Source of the DNA: a virus
Reading direction: 5' to 3' (one strand)
Virus record (IMG/VR): IMGVR_UViG_3300032288_004964
Location: 1-64,000 of that record
Length of the DNA: 64,000 nucleotides
This document shows positions 26,274 through 34,882 of this stretch, in pieces; positions within the stretch are counted from its first letter, which is position 1, and each line of letters starts with the position of its first letter. The notes beneath the pieces were generated by a model. It worked only from the letters and a program-made list of their open reading frames with translations, had not been told where the DNA came from and made no database searches. The position numbers and the translations under genes are program-made.

Positions 26274-27218
26274 TTATAGTTTTTTACCAGTTGATGGGTC
26301 ATAGTTCATAATTAATAACTCAACTCCCTTAGCTTGTTCACCTTTGCCTTCTGAGTTATTACCACCTTGTGCTGAACTTCTAAAAACTTCTTTTTCAGTC
26401 CAGATATATTTGTCTCTTGGTAACAATTCTTCTAATAAAGGAAAATAGTAATAAGATAGTGACCAACGACATTTTGATTTTTTAATTAAATCTAATAGCC
26501 TTCTGTGTGATGCTGGTCCAAACATACCTTCTTTATCAGCTCCATACCAAGATAATCTTTTGGCATCATCATCTCCATTTTCATCAGGTCTGTGATATGG
26601 TGGGTCTAAATATAGATAAGTATCTTCTGAGTCATATTTATTAATAAGTTCTTCAAAATCAATATTAAGAAACTCCTTAATAGTGGATAACTTATCTGTG
26701 TATTTATTTTTCTTTAATTTATCAATAAGAACTTCTAGTTTCAAACGGTCTTTATCTTTCTTATAACCATTGAAACCAGCTCCTCTTGGATAAACCGAGT
26801 TGTGAGCTGATGTAATTAAGAAAGCATAAATTGCTGCTTTTTCAAAATCACCAATTTCAAAGTCCATATTATCTAGAAAATCATTCTTGATATATTCTCT
26901 ATAAATACCCTTATAGAAATCCCATTTTTTCAAAGGGTCTGTTTCTGTTGTATTTAGTAAGGTTTTTTTAAGATTCTCTAAGTGAATAACAAACTCAGCT
27001 GGTTGAGATGCACACTTATATAAATTAACTTGGTGACGGTTTTTATCATTATAGATAACTACATCAAACTTTAGTTTTGGATCATCCATATATGTTCCCA
27101 TTGAGCCAGAAAATGGTTCTAGATAAGTTTTGATACTACCATCTTTAGGTATTTTTGAATTTATAAATTCAATAAAAATATTTGAGGATTTTCCTCCAAA
27201 ATAACTTATAACTGACAT
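26274..27218 (-). CDS. dam: DNA adenine methyltransferase (D12/Dam class)
   Basis: 314 residues. The SAM-binding motif region 'YFGGKSSNIFIEFI' is at residues 6-19, 'YLEPFSGSMGTYM' at 32-44 and the catalytic DPPY at 205-208, in the order typical of D12-class N6-adenine methyltransferases (Dam family). It methylates adenine in a specific DNA site; in phages this usually protects DNA from host restriction. No partner restriction enzyme is nearby, so it acts as an orphan. The recognition site cannot be predicted from sequence. It lies in a minus-strand cluster with the NADAR gene (7 bp away), which also looks defensive. Confidence 0.88.
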   Translation of the reverse strand: MSVISYFGGKSSNIFIEFINSKIPKDGSIKTYLEPFSGSMGTYMDDPKLKFDVVIYNDKNRHQVNLYKCASQPAEFVIHLENLKKTLLNTTETDPLKKWDFYKGIYREYIKNDFLDNMDFEIGDFEKAAIYAFLITSAHNSVYPRGAGFNGYKKDKDRLKLEVLIDKLKKNKYTDKLSTIKEFLNIDFEELINKYDSEDTYLYLDPPYHRPDENGDDDAKRLSWYGADKEGMFGPASHRRLLDLIKKSKCRWSLSYYYFPLLEELLPRDKYIWTEKEVFRSSAQGGNNSEGKGEQAKGVELLIMNYDPSTGKKL

Positions 27219-27225
27219 TTTAATT

Positions 27226-27741
27226 TTATTTATTTTTATATTTGATTTGGTCTTCTAATGAAGGTCTTTGATTTCTCGGTGTTAATTCATCTCTAACTTC
27301 CATTAGAATTTTACCAAGATGATTTTGTCCTTTATCGCCACATTTATCACAGGTACATATACCCCAGTAGACATCGTGCCAATAATTACCTTCAACTATG
27401 TCTTGATTAGATGTATTAATTAGCATTTCTTTTAATTCTGGATTGTTTTTAAATTTCTGTCTAACTGCCCAGTTCATTACTTCTAATTTCTTTTCATCCC
27501 AGTTACTTCTTAGTTTAACTTTACTTCCAATCTTTTTAACTTCAGCTGGATTTTTAACTAAAGCTATCATTTCTCTAAAATCTCCAGGTGTGTAGTATTT
27601 ACCATTGATTAGTTGTTGGTCATTAACTTTCATGGCTACATAAAAGTTTTCCACTGATGGATATTTAATACCTTGATGTTCTATTTCACAAGGGTAAAAA
27701 TTAGATAAGAATCTATATCTGCCTTCAAATTTATTTATCAT
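27226..27741 (-). CDS. NADAR (YbiA-like) N-glycosidase domain protein
   Basis: 171 residues covering a full NADAR/YbiA domain: 'FEGRYRFLSNFYPCEI' near the N-terminus, 'YPSVENFYVAMK', 'NWDEKKLEVMNWAVRQKFKNNPELKEMLINT', then 'IVEGNYWHDVYWGICTC' and 'GQNHLGKILMEVR'. NADAR proteins cleave N-glycosidic bonds of ADP-ribose-linked substrates; some remove ADP-ribose from guanine and act as antitoxins to DarT-type toxins. A phage copy next to a Dam methylase may counter host ADP-ribosylation defence or act in NAD metabolism. The family is clear; the role is inference. Confidence 0.85.
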   Translation of the reverse strand: MINKFEGRYRFLSNFYPCEIEHQGIKYPSVENFYVAMKVNDQQLINGKYYTPGDFREMIALVKNPAEVKKIGSKVKLRSNWDEKKLEVMNWAVRQKFKNNPELKEMLINTSNQDIVEGNYWHDVYWGICTCDKCGDKGQNHLGKILMEVRDELTPRNQRPSLEDQIKYKNK

Positions 27742-28173: not shown

Positions 28174-28202
28174 AAAAACCCACAATTTTATTGTGGGTTT
28201 TT
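28174..28202 (-). terminator. tmRNA terminator
   Basis: AAAAACCCACAAT / ATTGTGGGTTTTT stem (13 bp) with a 3-base loop, 4 bp beyond the tmRNA 3' end on the minus strand. Confidence 0.9.
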
Positions 28203-28206
28203 CTTG

Positions 28207-28584
28207 TGGAGATGAACGGTTCTGCCACCGATGTCTTAATAGTTGTTTATATTTATTCTTTTACAGGCTTAGTTATGTTTTTCTAAACTAACAAAATAGA
28301 TACTTTTTTTGAAGGACTCTAAAAAGTTACAAAAAATGGTCTCACCTTTTTTATCCTGTGTGAATCAGGTTGGAGAATTTTTTGATAGTAACTGTTTATT
28401 AGACAGTTGCTAGATCTTCTACCAAGATCATGTTGTTTTGTAGAGCCGCTACTAAATCTTCACGAGTTCCTACTTCATTTGTTTTGCCATTTACGACGTG
28501 TTACTTAATTTATTAATCGGACACTTAACCACCCGATACCTGCATAACTACCACCACACTACCAATCAATTCTAAAACATCCCC
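28207..28584 (-). ncRNA. ssrA: Phage-encoded transfer-messenger RNA (tmRNA)
   Basis: On the minus strand the 5' end reads GGGGATGTTTTAGAATTGAT, the usual tmRNA start. The 3' end CATCTCC pairs with GGGGATG over 7 bp (one G-U) to form the acceptor stem. A tag reading frame (28399-28488) starts after CGTAAAT at a GGC resume codon and ends in TAATAA. Both stops sit in the loop of a 6-bp helix (AACTGT/ACAGTT, 28390-28408), as in tmRNA helix 5. PK1-like ATCGG/CCGAT pairing precedes the tag. The CCA end is not encoded (ACAA follows the stem). A host-type promoter lies upstream and a terminator directly downstream. tmRNA rescues stalled ribosomes and tags the nascent protein. The T-arm is unusual (see findings). 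Confidence 0.88.
28399..28488 (-). other. tmRNA tag reading frame (29 residues)
   Basis: From GGC at 28488 to the first TAA at 28399-28401, followed at once by a second TAA. The peptide begins GKTNE, matching the G-E-T-N / G-E-N-N start of Bacteroidota tags, but is 29 residues rather than about 9-10 and ends EDLATV instead of the usual ALAA degron. Confidence 0.75.
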
Positions 28585-28606: not shown

Positions 28607-28637
28607 CAAAGATATATATAATATTCCAAAAGTCAAA
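28607..28637 (-). promoter_or_regulatory. Bacteroidota-type promoter of the tmRNA
   Basis: On the minus strand TTTG (28634-28637), exactly 19 bases, then TATCTTTG (28607-28614), fitting the TTTG-N19-TAnnTTTG consensus. It lies 22 bp before the mature tmRNA 5' end, leaving a short leader for RNase P removal. Confidence 0.75.
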
Positions 28638-30490: not shown

Positions 30491-30907
30491 TTAAATTATA
30501 ATTTCATATGAATTTGTATAATCAACCTTTACTTGACCATCATTCATACCTTTTTCTTTTTTAACAAACTTTCTTTGACAATAAACAATAGTAGCTTTTT
30601 CATCTTTTGGTGATTTACTATTCTTTTTAGCGAATTCTGCCGCCTTTTTTAAAACTTCTTTACTTGGAATTAACATTTCTTTTGTTGATGTTATTTCTTT
30701 TGTTTTAATCACAACATGACTACCAGGAACTCCTTTAACATGCATCCATATATCATCATTTTCTGCTATATTAAATGTTAGATAATCATTAGACTTGGCA
30801 TCTTTACCAATATAGACTGTAAATCCATCTATTTCCTTCTTTTGTATATTTGGAAATTTATCCTTTTTAGATTCTAAATATAATTTGAAATTACTAATGT
30901 GTTTCAT
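30491..30907 (-). CDS. Stand-alone NFACT-R (DUF814) domain protein
   Basis: 138 residues. Residues about 28-135 form an NFACT-R domain with the diagnostic 'DDIWMHVKGVPGSHVVIK' (51-68) and 'KATIVYCQRKFVKK'. In RqcH/Rqc2/NEMF this domain belongs to the protein that binds stalled large ribosomal subunits and directs C-terminal tailing. Small stand-alone NFACT-R proteins lack the NFACT-N and coiled-coil parts. Residues 1-13 (MKHISNFKLYLES) fit the shared N-terminal motif. It lies close to the tmRNA (28.2-28.6 kb), so a role in ribosome rescue or its inhibition is a reasonable inference. Confidence 0.82.
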   Translation of the reverse strand: MKHISNFKLYLESKKDKFPNIQKKEIDGFTVYIGKDAKSNDYLTFNIAENDDIWMHVKGVPGSHVVIKTKEITSTKEMLIPSKEVLKKAAEFAKKNSKSPKDEKATIVYCQRKFVKKEKGMNDGQVKVDYTNSYEIII

Positions 30908-30981: not shown

Positions 30982-32664
30982 TTAGTTAAGGTACTGTTTA
31001 GTATCAGTAACTGTAATAGTCATAAATTGTTTTTGAGGATACCAACCCACTTCAGCAACTGCATATCTTGATCTTAGTAACATTCTTGGTGCGAAAGTCG
31101 CTTCAGAAATTACAGAGATAGACTGAGCCATTAAATAAGGTACGAAAATGATACCTGGTTGGTCAGGATTGTTCTTTCTACCAAGAACGATTCTGTTGTC
31201 ATTATACTTCATGTATGGATCAACATAGATAGAAATATCTCCAATAGAACCTACTGGGTAAAGTTGACCTTGAGAGTTCATCTTAGATTTAACTGGGTTA
31301 ATTGTGTAACCAGAAATATCAGATAAAGCTGCTGCAAGACCTCCGTTTGTGATAAGGTATTGAGCTGGACCAACACGTCCTTCAGTTGCGATGTAGTTAG
31401 ATGCGTGAGCGATCTTAGTAACTAATTTTCTTTGAACTGCGTGTGTAGTTTCACCACCTAAAGTAGATGTAGCGTAAGCTGTATCTAAGTCAAAGATAGT
31501 AACTGCTGCTCCACCTGCTGTAGAAGCTGGTGCGTTAGTAGCATTAAGAGCACCCATTTCGAAAATCTTAGCAACAATTTGTTTAGAGATTGTTTGAGAT
31601 AATTCGTTAACAAGGATTGACTCCATTTTTTGAACGATATCCATACCTGTGTTAGCTTTGATATCTTCGATTTCAGTTCTTCTTAAAGCTGAAGATACTT
31701 CAATAGTACCAACTGCGATAGTCTTAGAAGAAATCTTAGGACCAATTACACCAGCATAGTTATCATCATCAGCTTGTCTTCCCATTGGGTAAGAACCAGC
31801 AGCTTGACCGCTAGAAGCAGATGTCCAGTTTGCAGAGAAACCTGGGATATGATCTTCTAAAGCTGAAATTAATTCAATAGATAAAGTACCAAATGAAGAA
31901 GCTGTAACACCAGCGATGTTAGTAATAACTGCTGTCATTGCACCTGTAGCAGGGAATGTGTTATCTGCTGCAACAAAAGTGTTAGGAACTACATTGCTAC
32001 CAGAAGTGTTAGCTTGTCTGTAAGCTCTGAACATTGGGTGACCATCGATACGAGAGAAACCTAAGAATTCAACTTGGTTAGTTTTTGTACCTGGCTCAGA
32101 GTAAGCTAAAACACCAGTTGAAATGTTATTCCACATTCTACCGTTAGATAAACCACCTGAGTTTTGAACAATACTAGATGCTGTTAAACCTGCTGTTAAA
32201 GCCGCGTTAACTGCTGTTAAGCTAGTAGCACTAAGTTTGAACACCATTGGTCTATCATTGTAGTTCTGGTTGATATCATCATATTGAAAATCAATATAAA
32301 GTAAGTCGATTTTTGGACCAGGAGTTGGCTTTACAGCTACTAAGTCTAAACCGATTGTTTGAGCAGCAATTTTCATAGCTACTGGAAGTAAGTTTTGACC
32401 TACATCTCCATTACCTGCTTGAGCACCTACACCAGCACCGTAAGCACCACCTAAAGTGTTACCTGCTAATGAACCTACTACTGGGTTTAATACAGCTCCC
32501 ATACCTGCTACGTTTGTAGCGTTAACGTAAGCGTTTTCATTGATTGAGTGAAATTCAGCATATTCAGCCATCCATTCAGCTCTTTCTCCAGTTACACCCA
32601 TGTTCTCTAATACTGGAGACCACTTCTTAACTGCTTTTTGTTTGTCTATTCTAATGTGTGACAT
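30982..32664 (-). CDS. gp23: Major capsid protein (T4 gp23-like)
   Basis: 560 residues, close to T4 gp23 (521). The conserved block 'MKIAAQTIGLDLVAVKPTPGP' at about residues 96-116 and 'LLYIDFQYDD' are diagnostic of T4-type capsid proteins. The N-terminal segment ends in an I-N-E site (I41-E43), matching the I/L-x-E consensus of gp21-type proteases, so maturation cleavage after E43 is likely. It is preceded on the minus strand by the fused protease-scaffold gene and has its own terminator and a weak AT-box upstream (32691-32700). Forms the hexameric head shell. Confidence 0.93.
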   Translation of the reverse strand: MSHIRIDKQKAVKKWSPVLENMGVTGERAEWMAEYAEFHSINENAYVNATNVAGMGAVLNPVVGSLAGNTLGGAYGAGVGAQAGNGDVGQNLLPVAMKIAAQTIGLDLVAVKPTPGPKIDLLYIDFQYDDINQNYNDRPMVFKLSATSLTAVNAALTAGLTASSIVQNSGGLSNGRMWNNISTGVLAYSEPGTKTNQVEFLGFSRIDGHPMFRAYRQANTSGSNVVPNTFVAADNTFPATGAMTAVITNIAGVTASSFGTLSIELISALEDHIPGFSANWTSASSGQAAGSYPMGRQADDDNYAGVIGPKISSKTIAVGTIEVSSALRRTEIEDIKANTGMDIVQKMESILVNELSQTISKQIVAKIFEMGALNATNAPASTAGGAAVTIFDLDTAYATSTLGGETTHAVQRKLVTKIAHASNYIATEGRVGPAQYLITNGGLAAALSDISGYTINPVKSKMNSQGQLYPVGSIGDISIYVDPYMKYNDNRIVLGRKNNPDQPGIIFVPYLMAQSISVISEATFAPRMLLRSRYAVAEVGWYPQKQFMTITVTDTKQYLN

Positions 32665-32743: not shown

Positions 32744-34882
32744 TTAAATGTTTTTGAATCTTTCCATAATTGCAGTAACTTCATTATCTGAAAGTTTATC
32801 TTCTTGTATTAAACTTTCATGAGCTACTAACTTTTTAGTTATAGATTCATTTTTCTTGAAATTTCTAGTTAACCAGAAATGTTCAATTTGACTTTCAGTT
32901 TTTAATACATCTTCTGGGTATAATCTAGCTTGTGAAAGCGCAGACTTTTTAGAAGATTCATTTAACTGTTCCCAGATTGGCTTAATGTTTTCAGGCATCA
33001 ATCTGATTACTCTTTCTTCAAGAGATTCATTCTTTGTAGATAGGGCTTCTGCGATCAGAGTAAGTACTTCTTTCTGTGTGAAATAACTTCTTTCGTTTAT
33101 GTGAAATTTAACAGTTTCCTGTTCTTCATCTGATAGTGCATAAAAGCTATCAACTTGAGACTTGTTTAAGAATTTTAAGAAATTCAAGTCTGTTGTTTCA
33201 GAAACTTTACGTTTTTTAGCTTCTTCAATTAGTTTATTAATAGATTCAGATAACTCAGATTCGCTGTTCATATTCATATGAACTTCTTCTTCGTGAGCTT
33301 CTTCTTCTTTCTCTTCTTCTTTAGCATAAGCTTCTTCTTCATGAGCTGGTGCGATACCATTCTCTTCATAAGATTCTTCTTCATGAGCTTCTTCTTCTTT
33401 AGCAAAAGCTTCTTCTTCATGAGCTGGTGCGATACCATTCTCTTCTTGATCCATTGGACCACACTCTTCTTCTTTCTCTTCTTCTTTATTCCAATTTTCT
33501 ACAGATTCAAAACCTGCAGCATCAAGACTAGGGAAATTTTCTTCTTCACCAGCTGATTCATTTAATTTAGAGCTGTTTAATCTTTCTACAATCATTCCTT
33601 GGTAAGAAATTGATTTGTCTAAGTTTTCAGCGATATATTCAGAATAAGCAATATTATCATCTAAGTGTTCAGCGATGTATTCAGAGTAAGCGATGTTACC
33701 TTCAACATGTTCAGCTAAATATTCAGAATAAGCAATTGAGTTATCAACATGCTCAGCTAAGTATTCAGAATAAGAAATGTTCTTATCTAAATTTTCAGCG
33801 ATATATTCAGAGTAAGCAATGTTCTTATCTAAATTTTCAGCGATATATTCAGAGTAAGCAATATTTTTGTCTAAATTTTCAGCGATATATTCAGAATAAG
33901 AAATGTTCTTATCTAAGTTCTCAGCTAAGTATTCAGCGTAAGCAATATTCTTATCTAAGTTCTCACCTAAATATTCAGAATAGTTAATTGATTTTTCTAG
34001 ATTTTCAGCTAAATAATCATTGTGTTTAATTAGTTTATCAGCAGTTTCTTTTAATGATTTATTTTCATTAACCATAACTTGGAATTTCTCAGCTAGATAA
34101 TCTAAATATTTAATTACTTGAGAATTAGTTGTATTTAATTCTTCATAGTATTCTAATAGTTGCTCTAATTTCTTAGGATTCATATTACCCTTAGAAATTG
34201 CACCTTTAACTTCTTTCTTAGTAGAAGCTAGTTCATTAACTAAGTACTTAGAGTAGTCAGTTAATTGTTGCTTTGTAACATAATCACTTTTGTTCATGTT
34301 AAATAATTCGTTAATTTTTGACTCATCGGACATTTCATATATCCTGAAGTTAGATTTTGGGTTTGTGAATCCTAAAGACTCATTAAGAACTTTTACACTC
34401 ATTTTAGCTGATGCGAAACCTGGGTCAGCAACAATATCATAAGTGAATAATTTCTTTAGTGCAACTGAACCGTCAGCTTCTGTGATACCTGCCGCTCTTG
34501 AAGAAACGAATACAGGACATCCATCATCTACTAATGATTTAGCCTCTTTACCCCAGTAAGTACTTAGTAATCTAATCTCACCTGTAACCAGGTTAGATTC
34601 TTTTACATAATCAGCTTTGGTGATTATGTGAGAAGCTCTTGAAAGTGATGTATCAAATACATCTGGATGATCAAACTCACCATAAACAGCACCAAGTGTG
34701 TTCATTCTTTCATTAAGTTCTTCTAAAGCAGGAAGAAATTTATCAGCTGTATATACTCTCTCATTACGGTTTTTTACTCCGAATTCTGTGAATGTACCAC
34801 CTAATATATAATCCTTCTTACCAGTGCTACTCTCTCTAATAAGAGATGTAGTTGAATTTTCTACAATTAAAACTGGTTTCAT
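32744..34882 (-). CDS. gp21: Fused prohead protease (gp21-like) and scaffold protein
   Basis: 712 residues against about 212 for T4 gp21. Residues 1-170 are the S77-type prohead protease: 'RVYTADKFLPALEEL', 'GEFDHPD' with H72, and 'PVFVSSRAAG' with S127 as likely nucleophile. Residues 200-430 are helical and include ten exact 14-residue repeats (287-426) of the type YSEY-I/L-A-E-N-L-D-K-N-I-A. Residues 440-570 are very acidic (HEEEAFAKEEE blocks, NGIAPAHEEEA twice), as in core scaffold proteins such as gp22. So protease and scaffold seem joined in one chain, and each repeat carries an I/L-x-E sequence fitting the protease's own consensus. It lies upstream of the capsid gene as gp21/22 do in T4. 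Confidence 0.85.
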   Translation of the reverse strand: MKPVLIVENSTTSLIRESSTGKKDYILGGTFTEFGVKNRNERVYTADKFLPALEELNERMNTLGAVYGEFDHPDVFDTSLSRASHIITKADYVKESNLVTGEIRLLSTYWGKEAKSLVDDGCPVFVSSRAAGITEADGSVALKKLFTYDIVADPGFASAKMSVKVLNESLGFTNPKSNFRIYEMSDESKINELFNMNKSDYVTKQQLTDYSKYLVNELASTKKEVKGAISKGNMNPKKLEQLLEYYEELNTTNSQVIKYLDYLAEKFQVMVNENKSLKETADKLIKHNDYLAENLEKSINYSEYLGENLDKNIAYAEYLAENLDKNISYSEYIAENLDKNIAYSEYIAENLDKNIAYSEYIAENLDKNISYSEYLAEHVDNSIAYSEYLAEHVEGNIAYSEYIAEHLDDNIAYSEYIAENLDKSISYQGMIVERLNSSKLNESAGEEENFPSLDAAGFESVENWNKEEEKEEECGPMDQEENGIAPAHEEEAFAKEEEAHEEESYEENGIAPAHEEEAYAKEEEKEEEAHEEEVHMNMNSESELSESINKLIEEAKKRKVSETTDLNFLKFLNKSQVDSFYALSDEEQETVKFHINERSYFTQKEVLTLIAEALSTKNESLEERVIRLMPENIKPIWEQLNESSKKSALSQARLYPEDVLKTESQIEHFWLTRNFKKNESITKKLVAHESLIQEDKLSDNEVTAIMERFKNI
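33605..34024 (-). repeat. Ten 42-bp (14-codon) scaffold repeats
   Basis: Exactly ten 14-codon units without indels. Each contains I/L-A-E (one has L-G-E). The repeat produces open shadow frames on the plus strand (33610-33987), which are not genes. Confidence 0.88.

Follow-up and report, generated by a model that had tools for sequence, protein, structure and literature searches.

A phage tmRNA with a long tag lacking ALAA, in phages encoding SmpB and Clp proteins: a candidate retuned degron

The tmRNA gene

The window analysed here comprises 64,000 nucleotides, positions 1–64,000 of a 385,333-base IMG/VR virus record (G000) of a giant bacteriophage, a record that is itself partial. Its minus strand carries a tmRNA gene with the following elements and flanking signals:

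28207..28584, minus strand: tmRNA gene ssrA, mature RNA of 378 nt, CCA addition not counted (RF00023 match, homologues, alanine acceptor stem)
28399..28488, minus strand: tag frame GKTNEVGTREDLVAALQNNMILVEDLATV followed by TAA, 29 sense codons (frame conserved in 25 distinct peptides)
28413..28429, minus strand: extra stem-loop GAUCUU-GGUAG-AAGAUC over codons 21–26 of the tag (covariation and fold)
28386..28412, minus strand: P5-type stem-loop whose loop holds the stop codons (fold of 28380–28444, z −2.68; position from the RF00023 alignment)
28215..28232, minus strand: remodelled T arm with loop GGCAGA (phage T arms and 5′ ends compared with those of hosts)
28607..28637, minus strand: Bacteroidota-type promoter TTTG-N19-TANNTTTG, with 22 nt between it and the tmRNA
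28174..28202, minus strand: terminator-like inverted repeat AAAAACCCACAAT...ATTGTGGGTTTTT, directly after the tmRNA (self-complementary match)

Read from 28584 to 28207, the gene begins with GGGGAUG and ends with CAUCUCCA, and the tmRNA plan lies between these ends in the one-piece order. The acceptor stem, GGGGAUG/CAUCUCC, has 7 bp with the G3-U70 alanine pair and A73, and is kept in relatives. The resume codon GGC is preceded by TAAAT (TAAAY in the family) and lies 96 nt from the 5′ G. The host tmRNAs of Bacteroidota most often have TAAAC or TAAAT before GGC, and the distance is 94–97 nt among the examples listed. The RF00023 model is covered over its full length (1–374 of 374) with an E value of 7e-12, and homologues that are 75–81% identical occur in LR745206.1 and LR756502.1. 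By these features, the minus strand of 28584–28207 is identified as a genuine tmRNA.

Standard detection fails at this locus. The RF00023 score of 33.7 bits is below the curated gathering score of 47, which the relatives LR756504 (65.2) and Lak-A1 (54) pass; the default Rfam thresholds miss the gene, and ARAGORN makes no call at the locus and overlooks the phage tmRNA family to which it belongs. An RF00023 search over the entire record gave nothing but tRNAs and passed over the real gene, so that absence in such searches is not used here as evidence.

The promoter pattern occurs four times in the window (1.42 expected by chance) and precedes 18 of 31 distinct tmRNA homologues. The inverted repeat that follows the gene is absent from the calls of a terminator scan.

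A tag frame conserved across a family of phage tmRNAs

On the minus strand, the tag opens with GGC at 28486–28488, continues in sense codons down to 28402, and closes with TAA at 28399–28401, followed by a second TAA at 28396–28398. The initial annotation had described a tag at this place with a Bacteroidota-like start, 29 residues and no ALAA, all of which is borne out by the reading of the frame; the full-length RF00023 match and 25 homologous peptides establish that the tag is real and is exactly GKTNEVGTREDLVAALQNNMILVEDLATV. The peptide ends in LATV, with no C-terminal LAA or ALAA, and is about three times as long as the nine-residue host Bacteroidota tag GENNYALAA, the form present in 72 of 80 cases in a host-form tag search whose matches were nearly all to Bacteroidota. 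Since bacterial tags span 8–35 residues in published work (PMC8012679), length alone does not make the phage tag exceptional.

A degenerate tag pattern, run against 2.9 million viral contigs, gave 12 matching stretches, all of them tmRNA-like. The 3′ CTCCA end is present in 11 of the 12 (the remaining contig is cut there), and the 5′ GGGGNTG end likewise in 11, L020 reading GGGGAAG instead. The pattern had no exact match when genomes of bacteria and archaea were searched (84,980 species), and a plasmid search gave chance matches only. A second pattern, based on the 5′ end, added many more stretches. The resulting family (group A, from IMG/VR and two ~640-kb phages) comprises 26 distinct complete tag DNAs, which encode 25 different peptides with lengths of 29 or 30 residues; these counts refer to related sequences rather than independent events and omit one further contig cut before the tag end. 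The core EV[GA][TS]xEDLVxALQNN is common to all tags, and V7, E11, D12, V14, L17, N19 and N20 are invariant.

The tag frame is distinguished from its alternatives by several measures. The two other frames contain stops in 26 of 26 and 25 of 26 group A sequences, the only length change is an in-frame 3-nt indel (one whole codon), and the tag frame has a pN/pS of 0.57, below the 0.75 and 0.87 of the other frames. A frame correction yielding a short ALAA tag, considered at the outset, is excluded by the homologues, which share the frame; ALAA in another frame is rejected likewise, the other frames being full of stops. Recoded stops are also rejected, TAG being an ordinary stop (44 of 467 ORFs) and the tag closing with TAA TAA. 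Comparison within the family shows that the tag is neither a frame error nor a product of chance. That the gene is a non-functional relic or an assembly artefact is scarcely credible: ARAGORN and the Rfam gathering threshold do miss it, but in dozens of independent contigs the acceptor stem, the frame and the 3′ end are all intact, and there are compensatory changes; these comparative data already refute such a reading.

Residues 10–20, in the tag core, form a conserved predicted helix (block pLDDT 82). The helix and the unusual length would suit a binding or sorting peptide that serves packaging or addresses an adaptor or a phage compartment rather than a protease. We regard this as improbable, as no partner emerged from the predicted proteins of the phage, among which the tag has no convincing match, or from tblastn of the phage records, where the two homologous tmRNAs were the sole matches; a Clp degron also accounts better for the constraint on the C-terminal residue. 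Copying of the tag from a phage protein is rejected on the same lack of a convincing match.

A covarying hairpin inside the tag frame

The tail of the tag frame contains a second element under apparent constraint. Across 21 distinct sequences, the hairpin over codons 21–26 pairs in 88.1% of cells, compared with 73.6% in shuffled alignments and at most 52.4% in slid controls, and 18 cells show double changes against 5.8 in shuffles. Codon 22 (ATC, CTC or TTC) and codon 26 (GAT, GAG or GAA) change together, so that the peptide pairs I-D, L-E and F-E follow the RNA base pairs. Folded in isolation, the tag hairpin, like the isolated T arm, does no better than shuffles, and the claim for the hairpin therefore rests on covariation. 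The alignment indicates that this stem exists besides the usual P5 around the stop codons, and that RNA and peptide constraints both act on the tag tail.

The hairpin with its codon 22/26 compensations, together with very low synonymous variation in the core, raises the question of whether the extension is kept mainly for an RNA stem-loop in the message-like part, the peptide being a by-product whose A/V end would be handled by host proteases. The coding signature described above speaks against this, namely the lowest pN/pS in the tag frame, the stops filling the other two frames and the sole length change being a whole codon; in addition, the invariant E, D, V, L, N and N fall outside the hairpin. 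We consider a primarily RNA-level role rather unlikely.

A remodelled elbow and phage-encoded SmpB, ClpC and ClpP

The elbow with TTCRA and GG is common in tmRNAs, though they are not defined by it. Most members of the phage family have GGCAGTA as their T-loop instead of TTCRA, and the GG of the D-loop is lost; the present RNA has GGCAGA and, in the D region, AG. The elbow of the host Bacteroidota tmRNAs is conventional, with TTCRA in all nine that were read and the D-region GG kept. Two family members (L056 and L087) retain TTCG, which marks the remodelled elbow as the derived state. This remodelling of the T-loop and D-loop accounts for the failure of standard programs to find the phage tmRNA.

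The record encodes its own SmpB (G000:238689–239123; Pfam E value 1.3e-51, over both NCBIfam cut-offs), as do all five large relatives searched, the present record included. Because these phages carry their own SmpB, its co-adaptation with the remodelled elbow is plausible.

A gene for a ClpC-type unfoldase is present in the same five of five genomes. In the present record (G000:285157–287292) it encodes 711 residues, which align from residue 33 onwards to ClpC residues 150–804. The protein has no match to Clp_N, i.e., it is N-domain-less, and has kept a UVR motif as well as a VGF loop that aligns with the ClpP-binding loop of ClpC, from which ClpP binding is predicted. ClpP is encoded by three ~640-kb phages, with two copies in LR745206 and three each in LR756502 and LR756504, and also by G009, G010, G011 and G015; the catalytic Ser, His and Asp are retained in all 10 phage ClpPs aligned. 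ClpP was not found in the partial 385-kb record of this phage. Seven records were searched for Lon and for the ClpX zinc domain, and neither was found in them. The Clp genes of group A do not adjoin the tmRNA.

Tags and Clp genes in other phages

A second set of phage tmRNAs (group B) carries a 21-residue tag, GNTFAKLQAVGLLTTEEVTVA and variants, ending in TVA. In all eight loci that reach far enough, the tmRNA is preceded at 2–4 kb by a ClpC gene of the same strand, although the contigs are close relatives and count as roughly one linkage event. ClpC is usually followed by a gene for an M42-type peptidase, and L073 adds a divergent UVR-motif gene. We note that L073 (2629–8111) and its relatives form a compact island of UVR-motif protein, N-domain-less ClpC, M42-type aminopeptidase and the tmRNA with the 21-residue tag ending in TVA. 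Another 21-residue tag, GNVYNEMAMFGLVADEAIVNA, occurs in a 92-kb contig with ClpC.

The ClpX-bearing phages Lak-A1, LR756504 and phage G have tags nearer to a canonical end (MAA, VAA and QVA, respectively). The Lak-A1 tag is DDEIDFRMAA; its tmRNA (L293:23026–23421, minus strand) escaped ARAGORN and came to light only through an acceptor-stem script, after which Rfam confirmed it. The ClpX-like frame of Lak-A1 (L290, 50–100 kb) is split by ~310 extra residues within one open frame, possibly an intein. The LR756504 tag, DNVNSFEQSILNELFAPVEMAVAA, ends in MAVAA, and this genome has both ClpX and ClpC. In Bacillus phage G (gp553; gp257–gp258), the tag AKLNITNNELQVA ends in ELQVA, and ClpP and ClpX are adjacent. 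Phage G thus shares with the present phages a non-ALAA tag and a phage ClpP and unfoldase in one genome, but its tag has 13 residues, its elbow is canonical and found by ARAGORN, and its unfoldase is ClpX with the zinc domain rather than ClpC.

Two further cases separate these properties. Mycobacteriophage ET08, of the Bxz1 group, likewise has a long tag ending in ALV (ATDTDATVTDAEIEAFFAEEAAALV, 25 residues, ending AALV), of unrelated sequence; ClpP and a Clp unfoldase were looked for in this phage and not found, so that phage Clp is not obligatory for long altered tags. In L086 and L088, whose tmRNA is called permuted by ARAGORN, a 29-residue tag ANLKASGNVTFVDFKAKLPTNEQVFALAA ends in ALAA, which means that tag length and ending are separable.

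The tag as a candidate degron for a phage Clp protease

The group A tags vary little at their C-termini. Position −5 is always E or D, and position −4 takes L, P or V; 13 tags terminate in V and 12 in A, and none of the 25 ends in LAA or ALAA. Among the phage's own proteins, 22 of 369 (about 6%) end in A or V. Weakened ssrA variants ending in LVA, AAV or ASV remain degraded in E. coli. The initial annotation had proposed that the changed end alters the fate of rescued proteins, for example to spare phage proteins or to employ a different protease or adaptor. If the degron were weakened or lost, ribosomes would be freed while truncated phage proteins evaded host ClpXP; this reading draws on the complete absence of ALAA or LAA ends from group A and on the ALAA-ending tags of Bacteroidota hosts. 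However, a lost degron would drift, whereas every group A tag keeps A or V at its end and a near-fixed acidic and hydrophobic pattern before it, which resembles a maintained C-terminal protease signal, and ClpC and ClpP genes are present in the phage genomes. Sparing of phage proteins is possible but fits the conserved A/V end less well, and we judge it unlikely; the other part of the proposal, another protease or adaptor, agrees with the phage ClpC and ClpP genes.

On balance, and with modest confidence, we favour a functional phage tmRNA whose rewritten tag would act as a degron adapted to a Clp protease that the phage itself encodes, and not as a mark against degradation. At a ribosome stalled during infection, alanyl-tmRNA with phage SmpB would enter the A site, translation would restart at GGC, and the chain would gain a non-encoded alanine and 29 residues. 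The tag would then serve as a C-terminal degron for the N-domain-less ClpC with phage ClpP, a protease that would replace, or be preferred to, host ClpXP and its GENNYALAA tag. The acidic-hydrophobic A/V terminus of the phage tag may engage the pore, with the helical EDLVxALQNN core possibly acting in recognition or initiation. The coupling of tag and Clp is suggested by gene content, from which we infer the steps of charging, use of phage SmpB, recognition by ClpC-ClpP and degradation of the tagged protein. Against the Clp-degron reading stand ET08 with no Clp found, LR756504 with both ClpC and ClpX, and the lack of ClpP in this partial record. Other tentative roles, in virion assembly or host takeover, have been proposed for ClpP, ClpX and ClpA in jumbo phages (PMC7824862), and these also count against a coupling of tag to Clp.

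More tentatively, and a little short of what we would call probable, several huge-phage lineages may run an orthogonal rescue-and-destroy pathway, consisting of a remodelled-elbow tmRNA, a phage SmpB, a tag in a phage dialect and a Clp that reads it, with long A/V tags going with ClpC and AA or VA tags with ClpX. Such phages may, in effect, run a private quality-control line with their own tmRNA, partner protein and matching protease.

The usual question about phage tmRNA tags is whether they help the phage to keep ribosomes or to destroy host proteins. A conserved phage-specific tag, SmpB and Clp in the same phages offer a concrete test, i.e., whether phage ClpC-ClpP reads the tag and host ClpXP ignores it, and the group A tags are candidate orthogonal degrons for Bacteroidota.

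Relation to known systems

The phage gene resembles the Bacteroidota one-piece ssrA (RF00023) in its alanine stem with G3-U70, in GGC after TAAAY at the same distance, and in a P5 with stops in the loop. It differs in a tag of 29–30 rather than 9 residues, the absence of ALAA, the T-loop GGCAGTA, the D-loop without GG, and the in-frame hairpin. The ssrA tag of the mycoplasma Mesoplasma florum is long too. It is paired with Lon (PMC8138137), and in this respect offers a parallel of a long tag matched to a different protease, but the system is bacterial and uses Lon, absent from the phage records searched, rather than ClpC. Phage tmRNAs as such are well documented: 402 phages in one collection carry one (PMC9004378), those of phage G and mycobacteriophages have been listed (PMC4131195), and Al-Shayeb et al. 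2020 reported tmRNA and SmpB in huge phages, the Mahaphage clade included (PMC7162821). That study used ARAGORN, which misses the present family, and tags and Clp are absent from its main text. Within the open-access literature, we found no paper linking phage tags to phage Clp.

Neighbouring genes and other observations

About 1.9 kb upstream of the tmRNA, the minus strand of 30491–30907 encodes a stand-alone NFACT-R domain protein (Pfam E value 4.8e-16); NFACT-R is the RNA-binding domain of ribosome quality-control factors. A NADAR-domain protein (riboflavin-intermediate N-glycosidase family; 27226–27741, minus strand) adjoins a D12-class adenine methyltransferase (26274–27218). Further along, the minus-strand genes at 32744–34882 and 30982–32664 comprise a weak match to the prohead S77 protease beside a Gp23-type major capsid protein, on account of which head proteolysis may be independent of ClpP. 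Beyond the window, at G000 370132–370204, ARAGORN reports a tRNA with a CTA (amber-type) anticodon, even though TAG serves as a stop in this phage, and three further tRNAs of the record (263450, 281611 and 282845) have odd anticodon loops.
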